Below, one piece after another: positions 521-20,265 of a stretch of DNA of 20,265 nucleotides (position 1 is the first letter of the stretch; every line of letters begins with the position of its first letter). A program made the translations under genes and the position numbers. A model generated the notes under the pieces. The model was given only the letters and a program-made list of their open reading frames with translations. It was not told the DNA's origin and ran no database searches. Source of the stretch: a virus; IMG/VR virus record IMGVR_UViG_3300008259_000993, positions 1-20,265 of that record. One strand, written 5' to 3'.

Positions 521-1258
521 TTACATCAAGTTAGAAATCTTGAATGCACGATAGTACAAGTTAGCTCTAGCGGTCAATGCGCCAACGCCTTGTGTAGCAC
601 CTTCTGCAAATGGGTTAGCAACTAGACCATAACGTGTCTTGAAGCCAATCTTTGGTTGGAAGTTGTTTGTATCAACTGCACGAACCATTTGTAGAGGAAC
701 GTATGGGCAGTAGAAAATACCTGCGTCATATGCGTTAGAACCCTTATAACCCATAACGGCAAACTCGGATGTGGAGTTAGCAGCAAAATATGGATCGATG
801 TACACTTTGATACGACCGAACAATGTACCAGCAAATGTATTGCCAGTATCGTCAACTGTCAAGTTAACTTGGCTGTTCAAAGCAGATTGGTAGTCCAAAA
901 GACCAGCCATTGCCAAAGCAGAAGCAACGTCAGATGAACAGATCATCACGTTACCTTTACCACGACGGGTTGTCTTAGCGATTGTATTGGCTTCACGTTC
1001 CAATTGGAATGCCAAACCTTTAATCTTTTCAACCATCCAGCGACCGTTGGAGTCTGTATCCAAGTCAAATGTACCTGCAGTAGTAGTACCAACTTGAGCA
1101 CCAACTTTAGCAACAGAGTAAATTGTACGGATAACTTCACGGTTAATTTCAGCAAGAATTTCAGTTGACAAGATGTTTGCCAATTCTGTTTCTGCGTCTA
1201 GACCATGAACTGCCTTCAAGTCTTGTGCCAATTCCATTGAGTAAGAAGCCCATTTCAT
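521..1258 (-). CDS. gp23: Major capsid protein gp23, C-terminal part (frame-broken)
   Basis: This frame encodes the C-terminal two thirds of the T4-like major capsid protein, which forms the hexamers of the head shell. Family hallmarks are YSMELAQDLKAVHG, ANILSTEILAEINREVIRTI, the segment VRAVDTNNFQPKIGFKTRYG and the closing ISNLM. The apparent ATG at 1258 is not a natural start: the first codons (MKWAS) are the out-of-frame reading of the end of the upstream fragment, and real homology begins at SYSMEL. It overlaps the N-terminal fragment (1161-1682) in another frame. About 17 residues usually found between 'NEMGF' and 'YSMEL' are absent. As written no single polypeptide can be made. Identity is very secure; functional status is not. 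Confidence 0.93.
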   Translation of the reverse strand: MKWASYSMELAQDLKAVHGLDAETELANILSTEILAEINREVIRTIYSVAKVGAQVGTTTAGTFDLDTDSNGRWMVEKIKGLAFQLEREANTIAKTTRRGKGNVMICSSDVASALAMAGLLDYQSALNSQVNLTVDDTGNTFAGTLFGRIKVYIDPYFAANSTSEFAVMGYKGSNAYDAGIFYCPYVPLQMVRAVDTNNFQPKIGFKTRYGLVANPFAEGATQGVGALTARANLYYRAFKISNLM

Positions 1259-1682
1259 TGAATGTCAAATCTTCAGCAACAGAAGTTGCCATTGCACCGC
1301 CAGTTGTAACTGTAGAAGCAAAAACGTTTTGGTTACCCAAAGCAGTATTAGCAGCCATAGAAATAGCTGTTTGTGTAGCTTTATCACCAGAGAAACCAGT
1401 GTTGGCTTCATTGTAGAAAGCTTCGACAGCACCGCCATTCACATCACGGTTAGTACCGTAAGTAGAACGCATTGCAAAGATCAATCCTGTTGGGCCTGTC
1501 ATTGGTTGAACGCCAGCGATATCATAAGCGATAAGGTTAGGCAAAGAACGGCGAACCAAGCTGATTAGGATTGGATCGAAACCGGCAACAGGGCCTGTTG
1601 CAGTAGAACCACCGGAATAACCTGTGCCACCCAAAGAATTGGTTGGTGCAGTTTCCATCATCATACCAGATTGCTTCTGCAT
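1161..1682 (-). CDS. gp23: Major capsid protein gp23, N-terminal part (frame-broken)
   Basis: This is the N-terminal third of gp23, recognised by TAPTNSLGGTGYSGG, DPILISLVRRSLPNLIAYDI, GVQPMTGPTGLIFAMRS and FYNEANTGFSGD. Homology stops at AEDLTFNEMGF; the remaining residues (LLNGIGTRLEG...) are a shifted reading of the gp23 body and end at 1161. MMMETAPTN may contain the gp21 processing site after Glu. The ATG at 1682 has no SD. A strong SD (AAGGAG, 1714-1709) is 7 nt before another ATG at 1701, but that ATG is out of frame with the body. Deleting one T after it would give M-Y-L-A-Q-E-M-Q in frame. So this gene appears to carry two frame lesions. Confidence 0.93.
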   Translation of the reverse strand: MQKQSGMMMETAPTNSLGGTGYSGGSTATGPVAGFDPILISLVRRSLPNLIAYDIAGVQPMTGPTGLIFAMRSTYGTNRDVNGGAVEAFYNEANTGFSGDKATQTAISMAANTALGNQNVFASTVTTGGAMATSVAEDLTFNEMGFLLNGIGTRLEGSSWSRRRNRIGKHLVN

Positions 1683-7116: not shown

Positions 7117-7761
7117 TTAGATATATCTCCATCCCGAAACATTATTTAATCTAGACCAAATCATTTTATAAGTATATCCTTGTATATTTTTTGATGCTTC
7201 ACTTATACTATAAAAAATGCCAAACGGTGTTTGTATTTTTTTAGCATTATTATTTTTACTACCAGTTTGATTAACATGAGGTCTTTCACCACACATATTA
7301 TATCTATGCTGTTCGGACTTTTTAACACCTGTCAATTTTTCTTTGGCTGCTTTTGCCGCTAATGGTTGAATTATTTTTATGTGTTCTGATAAATGTTTTA
7401 AATGTTTTTGTTTAACAATTGGTTTATTTAACCCAAAACTCGTTTTTTTACCATGTTCTATTTTATCAAACACAGTATTTCCACCTTGACCTTCTTCTAG
7501 TGTTAAATTTGCCCATTTATCAGAATTCACAATATCAAACTCCAATGAATATTTGATAGCAATTTTTCTAAAAACATCTTTATCTTCTGTAACAAATAAA
7601 CATTTTGTGTTTACTATATTACCATTTTGTTTTAAATGTCTTTTCCAATATGTTCCGGAACCACGATACAAAACACAATCTTTTAAAGATTGTGCTTCAT
7701 GTTTACAGAGATATTTTAATCCTGTAACTTTGTGTTCTTTTACCAACAAATATAAAGACAT
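7117..7761 (-). CDS. Putative GIY-YIG-type homing endonuclease
   Basis: A 214-residue protein inserted between gp19 and gp20, which are usually adjacent in T4-like phages. The N-terminus (LYLLVKEHKVTGLKYLCK) resembles a divergent GIY-YIG motif and is followed by LYRGSGTYWKRHLKQNGN, LEFDIVNSDKWANLTLEEG and GQGGNT, a pattern seen in free-standing phage endonucleases. The middle is Lys/His-rich. The C-terminus (FGIFYSISEASKNIQGYTYK ... GWRYI) resembles a NUMOD-like DNA-binding module. The DNA is more AT-rich than its neighbours. It starts 6 nt after a terminator and has no SD next to its ATG; it ends directly against the gp20 ATG. The family call is inference from motifs. Confidence 0.75.
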   Translation of the reverse strand: MSLYLLVKEHKVTGLKYLCKHEAQSLKDCVLYRGSGTYWKRHLKQNGNIVNTKCLFVTEDKDVFRKIAIKYSLEFDIVNSDKWANLTLEEGQGGNTVFDKIEHGKKTSFGLNKPIVKQKHLKHLSEHIKIIQPLAAKAAKEKLTGVKKSEQHRYNMCGERPHVNQTGSKNNNAKKIQTPFGIFYSISEASKNIQGYTYKMIWSRLNNVSGWRYI

Positions 7762-11643: not shown

Positions 11644-12078
11644 TTATTTAATAAAACTTCTTAACATCCATGCATGTTTTTGGTGTTGGTCTAACAAGTC
11701 TTGCAAGAAATTACCAATAGCTGGTTCTCCTGCTTGGTCAGCAGCAACAATACCTGCACGGAGATGAACCATCATTCTATCATTATCTCTTTTCAATTCT
11801 GCCATCATAGAAATTGGAGAAGGAATGATTGCTGATTCTTCTACGTCTGCCAACTCCAACATTCTCAATAACGAACCTGGTGCATATGCATCCAACATAC
11901 GAATTTTTTCGGCAATTAAATCAGTATTATTAAATATTGATGTATATAACTCAGCAAAAAAATCATGATACTGTTGAAAGTTTACACCTTCTACATTCCA
12001 GTGGAATCCGTGTGCCTTAAAATACAAGGCAAAGTTTGTGCCTAGTATAACTTTCAATTGTTGAATTAATTGTTCCAT
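11644..12078 (-). CDS. dps: Dps-like ferritin (DNA-protection/iron-storage family)
   Basis: A 144-residue Dps/ferritin-like four-helix protein. Dps proteins form 12-subunit shells that oxidise and store iron and limit peroxide damage. The signature AHGFHWNVEGVNFQQYHDFF ... TDLIAEKIRMLD supplies H26, H38, D53 and E57 at the spacing of the inter-subunit ferroxidase site. The position usually Asp or Glu four residues after the second His is Ala42, with Glu43 next to it, so one ligand may be altered. The C-terminal helix HQKHAWMLRSFIK is typical. It sits between gp16 and gp17, an unusual place for a non-structural gene, and is probably transcribed late. Confidence 0.93.
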   Translation of the reverse strand: MEQLIQQLKVILGTNFALYFKAHGFHWNVEGVNFQQYHDFFAELYTSIFNNTDLIAEKIRMLDAYAPGSLLRMLELADVEESAIIPSPISMMAELKRDNDRMMVHLRAGIVAADQAGEPAIGNFLQDLLDQHQKHAWMLRSFIK

Positions 12079-12079
12079 A

Positions 12080-12367
12080 TTATTTCTCTTTATTTGACTT
12101 TAAAAACTTTACCAATTCTGTGGTTGAACCAACAAACACAGCCTTATCTATATTCATTGATTTATCACTCATGGATTTTGGTGCTAAATCTTTTTTGCGT
12201 TTTTGAATTTCCATTAGGTCTTTATTTAGGTCAGACATATTCTTAAGCATTGTGGCCACAACCTCGAATGCTCTTGGGTGATGAGTGTCTTTAGCAACGT
12301 GTATCAAAGTGTCCATTGCAGATTTATAAATTTGCAATTGCGGTTTGAAAATCAGCATAAGTTGCAC
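12080..12367 (-). CDS. gp16: Terminase small subunit gp16 (short, N-terminus missing)
   Basis: This is the DNA-recognition partner of gp17. The core HHPRAFEVVATMLKNMSDLN ... LMEIQKRKKDL and the C-terminal AVFVGSTTELVKFLKSN match T4-like gp16. It is only 92-95 residues, against roughly 130-165 in relatives; the usual acidic N-terminal region is absent. Possible starts are GTG 12367, ATG 12358 or ATG 12316, none with an SD; an in-frame TAG closes the frame not far upstream. The first two starts lie inside the 3' end of the cupredoxin-like gene, giving an overlap of about 44 nt. The N-terminus may have been lost when that gene was acquired. Confidence 0.82.
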   Translation of the reverse strand: MQLMLIFKPQLQIYKSAMDTLIHVAKDTHHPRAFEVVATMLKNMSDLNKDLMEIQKRKKDLAPKSMSDKSMNIDKAVFVGSTTELVKFLKSNKEK

Positions 12368-12974
12368 TGTTTGCAGCTAAACTTTTTAGGCTTGTTATAG
12401 TAATGGTTGTATTACTTGTTGTATTTGCTTTATTAAATGCTGCTTGTGTTTGAGTTAGAGCTAATGCCGCATTAGCTGCAACAAAAGAAGCAGGCTGCTG
12501 AATAACAACATTACCAACCATACCGGCATGGTTTTGGCATTGGTAGACATAAGTTGAACCTACTAGACTAAAAGGAACTTTCCAATAAAGAGTGCCGTTT
12601 ATCTGAGCTTGTGCGTTAGAACTTGTTGAGACTGTACCAGTATTGCTAATGTGTGTTAGTCCTATATTGAAACTAGAACCACCTGATTCAGTCCGTATCA
12701 TAAACGGATGACCATCCAAATTATTTAAAACAAATGCTATGGTTTCACCACCAGAAACATACACTGTAGGATTGTTTCCTGAATATTGATCGATTAGATA
12801 AGCACTTGATCCAGAAGCTGTTACAGATAATCCAGTAACAGCACTCGTATAATTAGAGTTAGTTGTGTTATAAACTTCTGTAAAATTTTCATTGAGTTTG
12901 GTGAAAGCCGTTCGCAGAGGATCACCTGTGCCAGTATTTGGTCCTGTTCCTATATCAATTGTTTGTTGTGTCAT
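12324..12974 (-). CDS. Virion protein with cupredoxin-like (blue copper) domain
   Basis: A 216-residue protein in three parts. Residues 1-36 (TGTGDPLRTAFTKLNENFTE) form a motif seen at the N-terminus of many T4-like phage virion proteins. Residues about 45-160 look like a cupredoxin: beta-rich, with GGETIAFVLNNLDGHPF and TYVYQCQNHAGMVGNVVI. His89, Cys146, His149 and Met152 are placed as in a type 1 copper site. Residues 165-216 are Ala/Thr-rich with an FNKANTTSNT stretch typical of tail or fibre proteins. The start overlaps the gp15 stop by one base (TAATG). Related YQC..H..M domains occur in cyanophage structural proteins; metal binding is inference. Confidence 0.85.
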   Translation of the reverse strand: MTQQTIDIGTGPNTGTGDPLRTAFTKLNENFTEVYNTTNSNYTSAVTGLSVTASGSSAYLIDQYSGNNPTVYVSGGETIAFVLNNLDGHPFMIRTESGGSSFNIGLTHISNTGTVSTSSNAQAQINGTLYWKVPFSLVGSTYVYQCQNHAGMVGNVVIQQPASFVAANAALALTQTQAAFNKANTTSNTTITITSLKSLAANSATYADFQTAIANL

Positions 12975-16057: not shown

Positions 16058-16138
16058 TTAAGAACCGTAGCTTGCGCCTGCTGGTGAGTACCTAGCAGTT
16101 CCTACGCCTGCGGTATCTGTGGCAACTACACCTGTGTT
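16058..16138 (-). pseudogene. Orphan 3' fragment of an AIFGYG-repeat fibre gene
   Basis: Just past the stop of the repeat protein at 16148, the same reading frame encodes NTGVVATDTAGVGTARYSPA followed by GASYGS and a TAA at 16058. This is the second half of one repeat unit with its own end. The first half (AIFGYG...) is missing and there is no start codon. It is best read as the leftover tail of an earlier fibre gene or of a longer version of the present one. Confidence 0.75.
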
Positions 16139-16147
16139 TATACAATT

Positions 16148-17020
16148 TTATGTCAACGAATATCCTGCGGCTGCTAATGTGGATCTAGCAGTACCAACAC
16201 CTGCTGTATCAGATGATACTACACCTGTGTTTGATACTAGATTGGTTATTGCTGTAACACCAACACCTGATGGGTTGATGCCATATCCAAATATAGCTTT
16301 ATCACCACCATAACCTGCGGCTGCTAATTGAGTTCTAGGAGTACCAACACCTGCTGTATCAGATGATACTACACCTGTGTTTGATACTTTGGTGGTTATT
16401 GAATTAAATGTACCATTAGGACCTTCTCCATATCCAAATATGGCTTTATCACCACCATAACCTGCAGCCGCAAGGCCTTGTCTAGCAGTACCAACACCAG
16501 CGGTATTAGTAGCAACTACACCAGTGTTTGATACTAGATTGGTTATTGATTGATATGTACCAGGAGGACCTTCTCCATATCCAAAAATAGCTTGTCCTGT
16601 ACTACCATAACCTGCGGCTGCTAATCCATATCTACCAGTTCCTACTCCAGCAGTATCACTAGCAACAACACCAGTGTTTGAAACTTTGTTGGTCATTGAT
16701 ACAGTAGTACTAGAATATCCATATCCAAATATAGCTTTATCTGTGCCATACCCTGCGGCTGCTAATCCCCATCTAGCAGTACCAACACCTGTAACATCAT
16801 TACCAACAACGCCTGTGTTTGATACTAGATTAGTTATCGCTGTATTACTACCAGTACTTCCATATCCAAAAATGGCCTGGCCAGAACTACCATAACCTGC
16901 GGCTGCTGGTCCATATCTAGCAGTACCAACTCCTGCAGTATCAGTAGCTACAACACCTGTATTACTAACTAGATTAGTCATTGATAATGGTGGATTACCA
17001 TATCCATATCCAAATATAGC
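16148..17020 (-). repeat. Six tandem ~145-bp fibre repeats
   Basis: Six in-frame direct repeats of about 140-150 bp encode the AIFGYG...LAAAGY units. The most constant DNA words are those for IFGYG, NTGVV and AAAGY; the loops after AIFGYG differ in length and sequence. Confidence 0.85.
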
Positions 17021-17131
17021 TTTCTGTGTGCCGGTAAGTGCTACATAAAAACTAGTCGGCCACAAGCCAGCAAGTCTTCTGCTTCGTTGTTCGTAACCCC
17101 AAAGTGGGCCTGTAATATTTGTTTCTGCCAT
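16148..17131 (-). CDS. Tail fibre-like protein with six AIFGYG repeats
   Basis: A 327-residue protein. Residues 1-26 (MAETNITGPLWGYEQRSRRL, then AGLWPT) are probably a virion anchor. The rest is six complete units of about 48 residues, each running AIFGYG - variable loop - ITNLVSNTGVV - D-T-GVGTAR - LAAAGYG, to a final GYSLT. The pattern suggests a kelch-like beta-propeller, one unit per blade, with variable loops after AIFGYG as candidate receptor contacts; this is inference. The units are also similar in DNA sequence, favouring recombination. Its 5' end is repeated almost exactly at 19120-19205, and a half repeat lies after its stop. No promoter was seen. Confidence 0.87.
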   Translation of the reverse strand: MAETNITGPLWGYEQRSRRLAGLWPTSFYVALTGTQKAIFGYGYGNPPLSMTNLVSNTGVVATDTAGVGTARYGPAAAGYGSSGQAIFGYGSTGSNTAITNLVSNTGVVGNDVTGVGTARWGLAAAGYGTDKAIFGYGYSSTTVSMTNKVSNTGVVASDTAGVGTGRYGLAAAGYGSTGQAIFGYGEGPPGTYQSITNLVSNTGVVATNTAGVGTARQGLAAAGYGGDKAIFGYGEGPNGTFNSITTKVSNTGVVSSDTAGVGTPRTQLAAAGYGGDKAIFGYGINPSGVGVTAITNLVSNTGVVSSDTAGVGTARSTLAAAGYSLT

Positions 17132-17137
17132 TTTTTA
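17052..17137 (-). repeat. 86-bp direct repeat, copy 1 (fibre anchor 5' end)
   Basis: Identical to 19120-19205 except for one base (C/T in the Pro-Thr part of WPT). It covers the ATG, the first codons and the last 6 bases before the ATG. In this copy the frame continues into a full repeat protein. Confidence 0.95.
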
Positions 17138-17142
17138 CTCTT

Positions 17143-17931
17143 TTAACTTAATGAATAACCTGCGGCTGCTAGGTAAGTCCTAGCAGTACCAACACCTGTA
17201 GTATCCGTTGCTACTATACCGGTGTTTGATACTAGATTTGTAATATTGGTAATAGAAGCTGCCCATCCATAACCAAATATAGCTTTATCACCTCCATATC
17301 CGGCCGCCGCTAGTGCATACCTAGCAGTACCTACTCCGGTTGTATCAGTAGCAACTACACCTGTATTAGAAACTAGATTGGTTAGTGAATAGTTGGTAGC
17401 GCCGGTACCATATCCAAATATAGCTTTATCTGTGCCATAACCTGCGGCTGCTAATGCATATCTAGCTGTACCGACACCTGTTGTATCAGTAGCAACTACA
17501 CCGGTGTTTGATACTTTGTTAGTCAATGATACGTAGCCGCCGGAGGAAGGATCATAGCCATATCCAAATATAGCCTTATCAGTACCATAACCTGCGGCTG
17601 CTAATGCATATCTAGCTGTACCGACACCTGTTGTATCAGTAGCAACAACTCCAGTACTACTGACTAGGTTAGTTAATGATACGTTTGTGCCAGCGGCATT
17701 TTGTCCATATCCAAAAATAGCTTTATCAGTACCGTAGCCGGCGGCTGCTGGTCCATTTCTACCTGTACCAACTCCAGTAGTATCACTAGAAACAACACCT
17801 GTATTGGACACTAGGTTGGTCATTGATACATTAGCATTACTATATCCATATCCAAATATAGCCTTATCAGTTGTGTTTGATACTAGATTGGTTATTGAAG
17901 TTGTAGGATTGCTGCCATATCCAAATATAGC
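17143..17931 (-). repeat. Tandem fibre repeats, first unit truncated
   Basis: Six AIFGYG-starting units, five of them complete. In the first unit (around 17863-17875) NTGVV...AAAGYG is missing, so LVSNT joins TDKAIFGYG directly, a clean in-frame loss of 23 codons (69 bp) against the other units. Confidence 0.83.
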
Positions 17932-18354
17932 TCTCTGAGTGCTGATAGGAGTCGTACTAGTATCATTAATCGTCACTGTACTACTTGTTGCAACTATAAC
18001 ACCACTAACACTACCGGTTCTCAATGACACTGTAAATGTTTGAGCACCTTCTGTTGTTGAATCGGCAACCGCAGTTACTGTAAATGAACCGGCATTAGAG
18101 GTTATTGTAAATGAACCAGAAGTTACTGAGCCAGAAAAATCAGCTGCCGCAGTTGTAGAATTATTAACCGACCAGTAATATGTTCCATTGGTAATATTTT
18201 GTCCAGTAACATTAAATGTTAAAGAACTACCTTCATTGACACTTGAAGATGCCGGTGTTATGGTATAAGTGGGTGTAGGACTAGTTGGCCACAACCCATC
18301 TGCTCTCAGGTCATTCATCTGGCGCAGCGAAAAAATATCGTTTAAAAGACTCAT
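17143..18354 (-). CDS. Tail fibre-like protein: Calx-beta-like domain plus AIFGYG repeats
   Basis: A 403-residue protein in three parts. Residues 1-26 are an anchor ending GLWPTS. Residues about 30-135 resemble a Calx-beta domain (SSSVNEGSSLTFNVTG, DSTTEGAQTFTVSLRTGSVS, STVTINDTS). Residues about 142-403 are AIFGYG repeats like those of the next gene: six unit starts, of which the first lacks its second half. The Calx-beta part is nearly the same, in DNA and protein, as that of the gene at the right edge. The repeats suggest a beta-propeller for receptor binding, by inference. The stop is 12 nt before the next start, so the two fibre genes are likely co-translated. Confidence 0.87.
   Translation of the reverse strand: MSLLNDIFSLRQMNDLRADGLWPTSPTPTYTITPASSSVNEGSSLTFNVTGQNITNGTYYWSVNNSTTAAADFSGSVTSGSFTITSNAGSFTVTAVADSTTEGAQTFTVSLRTGSVSGVIVATSSTVTINDTSTTPISTQRAIFGYGSNPTTSITNLVSNTTDKAIFGYGYSNANVSMTNLVSNTGVVSSDTTGVGTGRNGPAAAGYGTDKAIFGYGQNAAGTNVSLTNLVSSTGVVATDTTGVGTARYALAAAGYGTDKAIFGYGYDPSSGGYVSLTNKVSNTGVVATDTTGVGTARYALAAAGYGTDKAIFGYGTGATNYSLTNLVSNTGVVATDTTGVGTARYALAAAGYGGDKAIFGYGWAASITNITNLVSNTGIVATDTTGVGTARTYLAAAGYSLS
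17954..18226 (-). repeat. Calx-beta-encoding direct repeat, copy 1
   Basis: About 270 bp is similar to 19999-20265 in the gene at the right edge, with one short in-frame indel (about 6 bp) and scattered substitutions. Long blocks are identical, for example those encoding TNITNGTYYWS and SLRTGSVSG. Confidence 0.85.
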
Positions 18355-18391: not shown

Positions 18392-19060
18392 CTACATCTT
18401 TTTCTTTGTTTTCTTTTTAGGAACAGATGTACCTAATTCTTTTGGTGGTTCCATTGTAGCAGTTCGTTGATTAGTTAATTGTAACATAATATCTTTCTGC
18501 TCTAGTAACATAGTACCTTGTGGTACAAGACCAATTTGCATCAATGATTCTAATGTCTGTGGATTACTCATTGCATTTAATAGTTTAGCTGGACTAGGTC
18601 TTCCCAAAGCAATAATTTCTGATTGAATCTCACGACCAATAGTTACCGTGAATTCATAGTTAGCATTAGCTTCAAACATTTCGTCATCAGTGTATGGTGT
18701 ACCGTCTTCATGCTTAAGTCTTGTTGGTTCGACTTCAGCATAGAGTTCAGCCATTAGTTTTTCTAATATTTTAATTTCTTTACGGTTCAATTCAAAAGCA
18801 TGTTTTTGGTCATCTAAGTGTGATTCTAGTTCAATAATTTCTGCTTGTAAGTTAAGAATAATATGTGGTAATGCAGGTACTTCTTTTAAGTGTTTTAGTT
18901 CTTCAAGTTTAGCTTGATATTTAAGTTCGCCACATTCTTCTAGTACCGCTGCACGTTTTCTACCGACTAAGAAGCCTTGTAGAGTTTTAATTTTTTCCCA
19001 TGGTGTGCTACCAATAACTTGATAACGATAGTTGAATTCAGAGTTTAGATTTGATGCCAT
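18392..19060 (-). CDS. Helical phage protein, function unknown
   Basis: A 222-residue protein I cannot name. After MASNLNSEFNYRYQVIGSTP it has GFLVGRKRAAVLEECGELKY and a long charged, helix-forming region (about 45-115) likely to form a coiled coil (LQAEIIELESHLDDQKHAFE, LNRKEIKILEKLMAELYAEV). Residues 150-185 contain ALGRPSPAKLLNAMSNPQTL. The C-terminus is Lys-rich (PKKKTKKKM). There is no signal peptide or membrane segment. Similar proteins occur beside fibre genes of marine T4-like phages; a fibre-assembly role is only a guess from context. A CATAAATA late motif and a GAGGA SD precede the start. Confidence 0.82.
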   Translation of the reverse strand: MASNLNSEFNYRYQVIGSTPWEKIKTLQGFLVGRKRAAVLEECGELKYQAKLEELKHLKEVPALPHIILNLQAEIIELESHLDDQKHAFELNRKEIKILEKLMAELYAEVEPTRLKHEDGTPYTDDEMFEANANYEFTVTIGREIQSEIIALGRPSPAKLLNAMSNPQTLESLMQIGLVPQGTMLLEQKDIMLQLTNQRTATMEPPKELGTSVPKKKTKKKM

Positions 19061-19199
19061 AATGATTCCTCATAATAATGTTTAAATATGTATTTATGTG
19101 TTTATGGCCAAGAGTTCTTCTAGTTGGCCACAAGCCAGCAAGTCTTCTGCTTCGTTGTTCGTAACCCCAAAGTGGGCCTGTAATATTTGTTTCTGCCAT
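19038..19199 (-). pseudogene. Orphan 5' anchor fragment of a fibre gene
   Basis: An ATG at 19199 opens a 53-codon frame whose first 26 residues are the same as the anchor of the repeat protein at 17131 (MAETNITGPLWGYEQRSRRL, then AGLWPT). The match ends at WPT; unrelated residues (RRTLGHKHINTYLNII) follow until TGA at 19038, inside the start of the helical gene. It begins 6 nt after the stop of the Gly-rich adhesin, as the anchor of a following fibre gene would. The receptor-binding part is gone. Confidence 0.8.
19091..19098 (-). promoter_or_regulatory. Late-promoter-like motif before the helical protein
   Basis: CATAAATA on the minus strand lies about 30 nt before the ATG at 19060, in the same sequence context as the gp13 copy (ACACATAAATA). 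The match to T4 late is 7 of 8. Confidence 0.58.
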
Positions 19200-19205
19200 T
19201 TTTTA
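19120..19205 (-). repeat. 86-bp direct repeat, copy 2 (orphan anchor)
   Basis: Copy of 17052-17137 with one mismatch, 2068 bp away. Similarity ends sharply at 19120 on one side and at 19205 on the other. Confidence 0.95.
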
Positions 19206-20265
19206 TTATTGATCTGTAGTGAGTGTAGATGGGAATGCTCGACCCGGTCCCCAGATAATACGAACTGCACCACCTGCACCGTAATTATTCATTGCACTAG
19301 TAGCGTGTCCAGCACTGCCGCCACCGTAGTTACCACCATTTCGACTTCTAGTAGTTGATGTTCCGCCACCGCCGGAGCCACCGCCGCCTTGATATCCGGT
19401 TAAGCTACCATTATCGTATCCTGCTGCATTTGCTACACCATTAGAGCCTTGCCCTAATATACCAACGCCACCACCACCACCACCACCGGGAACAGGAGAT
19501 CCCAATGCACCACCTGCGCCACCACCTCCTGATCCGGCGACGCCAGCATATGGAGAGCTATCATTACTTCCTGCACCTTTACCTCCGGCGCCGGCATATC
19601 CGCCTGCACCGCCACCACCAGAAGCACTGCCGCCTGTACTGGTTCCACCAGCTCCTCCGTTGCCACCACCAGTTCCTGTATATGTTCCGCCTGCACCACC
19701 AGTAGTGGCTGTACCATCACCGCCTGCTCCACCTCTAACAGTAGCCGTTGATATAAAGTAAGAATGTGTTCCAGATCCAGCAGCACCAACTACTACGGTA
19801 TAACTATTACCGGGAGTTACTGCGATATTATTTTTCCAGCCTAGTCCACCACCACCACCACCTTCATTTGGCATGGTAACCCCGTACCCCTGGCCACCAG
19901 GCCCAACAGCAACAACTGAGACACTAGTTACACCTGCGGGTGCTGTCCACGAGAACGTGCCTGCTGTGGTATATGCTGCTTGTCCTACAGGAGGAGCTGT
20001 ACTTGTATCATTAATTGTTACAGTACTACTTGTAGCAACTATGGTACCACTAACACTACCGGTTCGTAATGACACCGTAAATGTTTGAGCTCCTTCAGTT
20101 GTTTCATCAGCCGTTGGTGTTATAGTAAATGAACCAGCATTTGATGTAATTGTAAATGAACCAGTACTGGCTGAAAAATCACCAGCCGCAGTTGAGATAT
20201 TATTAATCGACCAGTAATATGTTCCATTGGTAATATTTGTTCCACCAGCATTAAATGTTAAAGAA
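19206..20265 (-). CDS. Gly-rich tail adhesin with Calx-beta-like domain (5' end cut by window edge)
   Basis: The frame is open from the right edge (first full codon 20264-20262) to TAA at 19206; the start lies outside the window. The N-terminal visible part (SLTFNAGGTNITNGTYYWSI ... STVTINDTS) is a Calx-beta-like segment close to that of the gene at 18354. It is followed by AAYTTAGTFSWTAPAGVTSV, a beta-strand region, and then about 170 residues that are mainly Gly, Ala and Ser with runs of 4-8 Gly. The end, GGAVRIIWGPGRAFPSTLTT, is typical of marine phage adhesins. Poly-Gly regions in such adhesins can form a Gly-II sandwich, as in phage S16 gp38; here this is by analogy. It probably serves as a receptor-binding tail protein. 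Confidence 0.88.
   Translation of the reverse strand, partial: SLTFNAGGTNITNGTYYWSINNISTAAGDFSASTGSFTITSNAGSFTITPTADETTEGAQTFTVSLRTGSVSGTIVATSSTVTINDTSTAPPVGQAAYTTAGTFSWTAPAGVTSVSVVAVGPGGQGYGVTMPNEGGGGGGLGWKNNIAVTPGNSYTVVVGAAGSGTHSYFISTATVRGGAGGDGTATTGGAGGTYTGTGGGNGGAGGTSTGGSASGGGGAGGYAGAGGKGAGSNDSSPYAGVAGSGGGGAGGALGSPVPGGGGGGGVGILGQGSNGVANAAGYDNGSLTGYQGGGGSGGGGTSTTRSRNGGNYGGGSAGHATSAMNNYGAGGAVRIIWGPGRAFPSTLTTDQ
19999..20265 (-). repeat. Calx-beta-encoding direct repeat, copy 2 (runs to edge)
   Basis: Counterpart of 17954-18226. It probably continues past the right edge, since copy 1 remains coding for the same domain beyond the matching point. Confidence 0.83.

Follow-up and report, generated by a model that had tools for sequence, protein, structure and literature searches.

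Putative exchangeable receptor-binding tips with a predicted six-bladed, Kelch-like propeller fold in an uncultured T4-like phage

The propeller genes and their surroundings

The window analysed here is a viral record of 20,265 bp (IMGVR_UViG_3300008259_000993), whose minus strand carries a block of T4-like structural genes (portal, protease, major head protein, tube, sheath, terminase, sheath stabilizer and neck). These neighbours confirm the T4-like phage proposed in the first-pass annotation, which had been made from the letters of the window. The phages of this group probably live in fresh water, which we take to be the usual source of such IMG/VR contigs. Directly upstream of the gp13/gp14-like genes lies a cluster with two adjacent propeller genes, here called A and B, a companion gene and a glycine-rich tip gene (Table 1).

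The two adjacent genes with units of about 48 residues that the annotation had described are both present, and their full units span 47–49 aa in A and 46–50 aa in B. Its count of six units per gene holds for A, whereas B has six AIFGYG starts and only five full units, the first unit being a stub of 23 aa in which NLVSNT is joined directly to TDK. It had also ended the feature at 17931, where B has its first AIFGYG; the gene itself continues to 18354. Tandem Repeats Finder reported arrays with a period of 147–150 bp and with the double period at scores of 512–782, and a chance origin of the repeats is therefore excluded. The N-terminal anchor of A is common to the A-type genes of seven related loci (L013, L014, L017, L027, L028, L029 and L079). 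The anchor of B consists of 25 aa (MSLLNDIFSLRQMNDLRADGLWPTS) and is followed by an Ig/Calx-beta-like stalk, recognised by Pfam at E values of about 1e-3 to 1e-4, under the curated cut-offs; this stalk has matches among proteins of P-SSM2 and of Synechococcus phages.

Table 1. Coordinates of the propeller genes, their parts and the neighbouring elements in the window
Feature	Position	Strand	Description
Gene A	16148..17131	(-)	327 aa; short N-terminal anchor and predicted six-bladed propeller
Propeller of A	16151..17020	(-)	aa 38-327; six complete units, 47-49 aa each
Units of A	17020-16877, 16876-16736, 16735-16592, 16591-16445, 16444-16298, 16297-16151	(-)	
N-terminal anchor of A	17021..17131	(-)	MAETNITGPLWGYEQRSRRLAGLWPTS...
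Leftover in-frame half unit	16058..16147 (about)	(-)	CINTGVVATDTAGVGTARYSPAGASYGS, then stop; lies past the stop of A
Gene B	17143..18354	(-)	403 aa; anchor, Ig/Calx-beta-like stalk and propeller
Propeller of B	17146..17931	(-)	truncated first unit (17931-17863) and five full units
Junction of 69-bp gap in unit 1 of B	17871..17872	(-)	gap relative to L001, L002, L004 and L008
Companion gene	18392..19060	(-)	222 aa; no known family; guessed role given in text
Orphan copy of the 27-aa anchor of A	19119..19199	(-)	96% identity to residues 1-27 of A; without propeller
Glycine-rich tip gene with Calx-beta-like stalk	19206..20264, open at window edge	(-)	phrog_4474, E 1.6e-59; phrog_863 tail fiber assembly, E 5e-5

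The short first unit of B probably results from a deletion error in the window record. Locus L004 is 100% identical to the window over 2225 bp and 5549 bp and carries 69 extra bases exactly at 17871/17872; these bases, also present in L001, L002 and L008, give B a sixth full unit. At 12323–12326 the window lacks about 160 bp found in L002, L003, L004 and L010, with loss of the N-terminus of the small terminase. In addition, the major head protein gene (521–1682, minus strand) is broken up into two ORFs that overlap each other and match different regions of phrog_138, which points to a frameshift or to bases lost from the record. Because both of these damaged genes are essential, errors in the window record are suggested, and B is therefore most likely a normal six-unit gene.

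Three further ORFs of the window, all on the minus strand, are of note. Between the two terminase genes, small and large, lies a Dps-like DNA-protection ferritin gene (11644–12078), recognised from phrog_3636 and from NCBIfam DpsA-type models, under the cut-offs of those models; at L188 and L178, proteins resembling its product are encoded close to fibre genes. A baseplate-type protein (12324–12974) with the N-terminus of T4 gp9/10 shows a weak match to a plastocyanin/azurin-like copper-binding domain. Finally, an ORF at 7117–7761, located between the genes for tube and portal, resembles a homing-endonuclease-type insertion, and family searches gave no significant match for it.

Predicted fold and variable positions

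With 79 relatives as input, AlphaFold2 produced a model of A with a pLDDT of 86.7, a pTM of 0.81 and a repeating strand pattern; only the best of five models was confident, the remaining ones having mean pLDDT values of 48–61. Prediction from the single sequence was weak yet already all-beta and periodic, and this poor model was kept out of the fold searches. Kelch domains were the best matches in the PDB: Foldseek retrieved those of KLHL12 and KEAP1 (E 1e-13, TM 0.70–0.75). Similarly, VIA retrieved KEAP1, KLHL12, KLHL17, KLHL20 and the designed SAKe6 proteins with Z of about 33–34 and rmsd of 2.2–2.5 Å over about 270–280 residues. In the model, each blade is an antiparallel meander of strands a (LAAAGYG), b (KAIFGYG), c (S-TNLVS) and d. 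The strands of the model begin with KAIFGYG and end with AAAGY, so that the ring would be closed by one C-terminal strand (a) together with three N-terminal strands (b–d).

Searched against the sequences of the PDB, the family profile matched the PHL/PLL propeller lectins at E 1.4e-6 when built from seven rows and at E 1.1e-4 when built from 79 rows. A composition effect was considered as the cause of the lectin match, but a control profile from reversed sequences gave nothing below E 1, its best match being unrelated. Pfam and NCBIfam contain no family match for A, and no Kelch model occurs among the 25 Pfam families shown for 79 members; relatives have scattered Pfam matches, Peripla_BP_4 among them, which resemble composition matches. 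Among the PHROGs, the propeller reached only phrog_27227, at E 0.027.

The number of units bears directly on ring closure. A unit HMM was run over the ORFs of related loci; of 121 complete ORFs, 110 have exactly six units, one has 12 and another has 18, the latter two arranged as six-unit blocks with linkers of about 25 aa between them; the other nine have two to five units, and several of these are fragments or gene remnants. Because unit counts are locked to multiples of six, a closed ring is favoured over an open solenoid. Although fibrous tail-fibre repeats, too, typically consist of short, very regular units rich in Gly, Ala and Thr, a non-closed or fibrous arrangement is thus highly improbable in view of these counts, the confident ring that matches Kelch domains (Z about 34) and the independent profile match to propeller lectins. 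The ORFs with 18 and 12 units (L041:5248-8001 and L036:1702-4269) are single genes with three and two complete propellers in tandem. Collectively, the predictions indicate that the family is almost certainly a six-bladed, Kelch-like propeller, the fold that the first-pass annotation had suggested.

Within each unit, variation is concentrated at two places, the b–c loop of 8–11 aa after AIFGYG and the two residues (d–a) after GTAR. Over 690 distinct units, the entropy of the loop and dipeptide columns averages 3.14 bits per column, compared with 0.61 for the remaining 39 columns, and each of the eight most variable columns belongs to the loop or the dipeptide. Across the family, the loop can be as short as 2 aa or as long as 16 aa. 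The c–d turn (NTGVVATD, mean 0.59 bits) and the a–b turn (GTDK) are mostly conserved, with one a–b position reaching 2.38 bits. Between units, the framework differs at about 8% of residues and the loops at 65–74%, figures that depend on a parsing rule favouring regular units, whereas the entropy figures are independent of that rule. Furthermore, the codons of identical framework residues differ synonymously in 39–50% of cases; as only about 8% of residues differ despite this, the protein framework is under purifying selection. The greater variability of the loops is consequently borne out, as is the location of one variable loop just after AIFGYG, but that loop is not the single variable place per unit that had been described.

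Because the blade is an antiparallel four-strand meander, the b–c loops and d–a links share one face, and the a–b and c–d turns lie on the opposite one. By strand order, then, the six b–c loops and six d–a dipeptides of the predicted propeller must form a variable surface on one face, in agreement with the one-sided placement proposed earlier. The variable residues coincide exactly with the positions of the BC and DA loops of Kelch domains.

Loop exchange, the companion gene and distribution

Loops with identical DNA recur at different unit positions of different genes. The loop QNAAGTNVSL occupies unit 3 of B in the window and unit 6 of a gene at L013, with 30 of 30 bases identical. YTSSNQSI is found in unit 1 and unit 5 of two L013 genes, where the whole unit is only 82% identical, and RTTVNVSI and NGGSNTSV likewise stand at differing unit positions. 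Such shifted loops indicate recombination. Exchange also extends to whole propellers and tip types: at L009, a gene nearly identical to A is accompanied by an upstream propeller that differs from that of the window in all six loops, and at L001 a propeller gene occupies the slot of the glycine-rich gene, the alignment to the window ending at 19205 with the propeller upstream. The framework provides homologous DNA at every unit and in every copy, which would permit swaps of single loops, whole propellers and tip types, and new specificities probably arise mainly through such recombination. A diversity-generating retroelement, which usually targets hypervariable loops on constant scaffolds in phage tip proteins, is a most improbable source, since none of 20 related records, most of them probably incomplete, has a reverse transcriptase above the RVT_1 cut-off, loops of 2 to 16 aa are not produced by template mutagenesis at adenines, and identical loops at shifted positions fit recombination.

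The companion gene is closely linked to the propellers. Among loci found with the companion as the query, 71 of 80 have a propeller within 6 kb (34 of 39 once near-identical copies are set aside), and over all loci the nearest propeller lies at most 100 bp from the companion in 122 of 148 cases. The companion is present in 41 of 80 loci found with the propeller as the query and is therefore not obligatory. Where it occurs without a propeller (L175, L188, L230 and L231), other fibre or tip genes are nearby, some of them glycine-rich and with the same anchors. Our guess is that it acts as a chaperone or adaptor of the tip genes. The anchors of the propellers are short, differ between phages and are often common to neighbouring tip genes of one phage; at L022, L044, L057 and L188 this sharing extends to glycine-rich and fn3 tip genes. 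The N-terminal anchors resemble no known attachment domain.

A first scan returned 536 matching stretches in viral contigs and one relative among 84,980 prokaryote genomes. No propeller match was found by tblastn or blastn in 50,697 named phage records, where the low-complexity filter may hide weak ones; the matches of B in named phages stem from its stalk and not from its propeller. In BFVD, members of the family are filed as uncharacterized proteins of uncultured phages. One giant-phage contig of 524,565 bp (IMGVR_UViG_3300027749_002876, including L040, L050 and L072) carries 16 full propeller genes and one partial gene; its propeller clusters are located at about seven separate places. Because nearly all relatives are metagenomic, the repeats may be mis-assembled in places. 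In a MAG of Oligoflexia (L155:4803-6549), a propeller with a twin-arginine-like N-terminal signal is followed by the companion gene, and the pair adjoins a transport operon (permease and ABC ATPase) and an S30AE gene; the arrangement reflects either capture of the pair from a phage or a chimeric assembly.

Receptor binding and relation to known systems

We consider A and B to be exchangeable receptor-binding tips, that is, putative adhesins, of a T4-like phage, with a probability of about 75%. As judged from sequence, three features point to receptor binding: the genes lie in the host recognition region, they interchange with glycine-rich tips, and their loops are variable. In pelagimyophages, the neck gene gp14 bounds the host recognition cluster (PMC7029224). 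In each tip, a closed six-bladed Kelch-like propeller would follow a short anchor, either directly or after an Ig/Calx-like stalk, and the variable face, with its six b–c loops and six d–a dipeptides, would contact host surface molecules. The place of the propellers on the virion is likewise one that we infer.

Alternatively, the propellers could be decoration or glycan-binding proteins of the head, collar or fibre shaft that give a loose hold on cells, mucus or particles and have no part in host choice. This is unlikely, although several observations would suit it. Many copies are present per phage, as in the 524-kb contig, and the profile resembles the sugar-binding PLL/PHL propellers. Moreover, the window genes lie just upstream of gp13/gp14; in T4, the collar fibritin and the short fibres are encoded near these two genes. 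In contrast, the interchange with glycine-rich tips and the restriction of hypervariability to one face fit specific recognition better, and the family lacks the sugar site that PLL builds from Trp (only 0.2% of loop residues are Trp). Considerably less likely is neutral drift of an exposed surface that has no recognition function: surface loops of any protein drift faster than cores, but only two of the four types of blade turn vary strongly here, both on the same face, and loop cassettes pass intact between genes.

If A and B are receptor-binding tips, a single scaffold would give one phage as many as 16 variable binding faces through recombination without a retroelement, and the host recognition of uncultured phages could become readable from loop sequences. 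More tentatively, and at somewhat less than even odds, the family may represent a system of adhesin diversification that is widespread in uncultured T4-like and giant phages. In such a system, a near-invariant six-blade scaffold would be kept homologous at the DNA level, and loop cassettes, propellers and tip types would be shuffled among many copies per genome; partial genes might serve as donors, and all tip types would share a dedicated companion protein.

Phage adhesins with a constant scaffold and variable loops are already known, as are receptor-binding proteins with a propeller. To our knowledge, within the literature searched, the scaffold, its multiplicity, the pattern of loop cassettes and the companion are undescribed. 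Propellers have been found in proven or putative receptor-binding proteins of phages, namely phi11 gp45 (five blades), PRD1 P2 (a distorted five-bladed one) and phiKZ gp131C (seven blades) (PMC4901313). To call the fold uncommon for receptor binding, as the first-pass annotation had done for a T4-like fibre, is fair, but it has precedents. These proteins share the propeller domain with the window family and differ from it in blade number; they have no sequence match to it, and uniform blade repeats or loop cassettes are not described for them in PMC4901313. Propellers are rare among described receptor-binding proteins of phages, whereas the window family is common in viral metagenomes. Two comparable Kelch-like phage proteins have no assigned function: A0A6J7XFV6 of an uncultured Caudovirales phage is 61% identical and clearly of the same family, and the Kelch-motif protein of the cultured phage BcepSaruman has the fold in common but is only 23% identical.

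Similar to the Kelch domains of KEAP1, KLHL12 and KLHL20 and to the designed SAKe6 proteins, the family is predicted to have six blades of about 48 aa. In Kelch domains, the ligand surface is shaped by the BC and DA loops (PMC6720452), and the window family varies at the corresponding loops. However, sequence identity is only 11–18%, Pfam finds no Kelch match in the family, and the double glycine that ends strand b in Kelch is replaced by FGYG, with G-Y-G at 95% or more. The units of human Kelch domains are also far less uniform than those described here, and the family would give designed Kelch scaffolds a counterpart from nature. The PLL/PHL lectins of Photorhabdus are the only known structures reached from the sequence profile (E 1e-6 to 1e-4), and their repeat registers align with ours; in contrast, they have seven blades instead of six, and their Trp sugar sites have no equivalent in this family.

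Finally, the adhesins of the T-even gp38 type also combine conserved scaffold motifs with hypervariable segments. Their scaffold is glycine-rich and not a propeller, and they form one tip gene instead of a family of tips; in the window, A and B show no glycine-rich motifs, family searches gave no glycine-rich match for them, and the glycine-rich gene is a separate one (19206–20264). In T-even gp38, recombination between conserved motifs is reported to swap specificity (Tetart 1998, cited in PMC12529663). The pattern of loop exchange in the window family resembles that of these adhesins.
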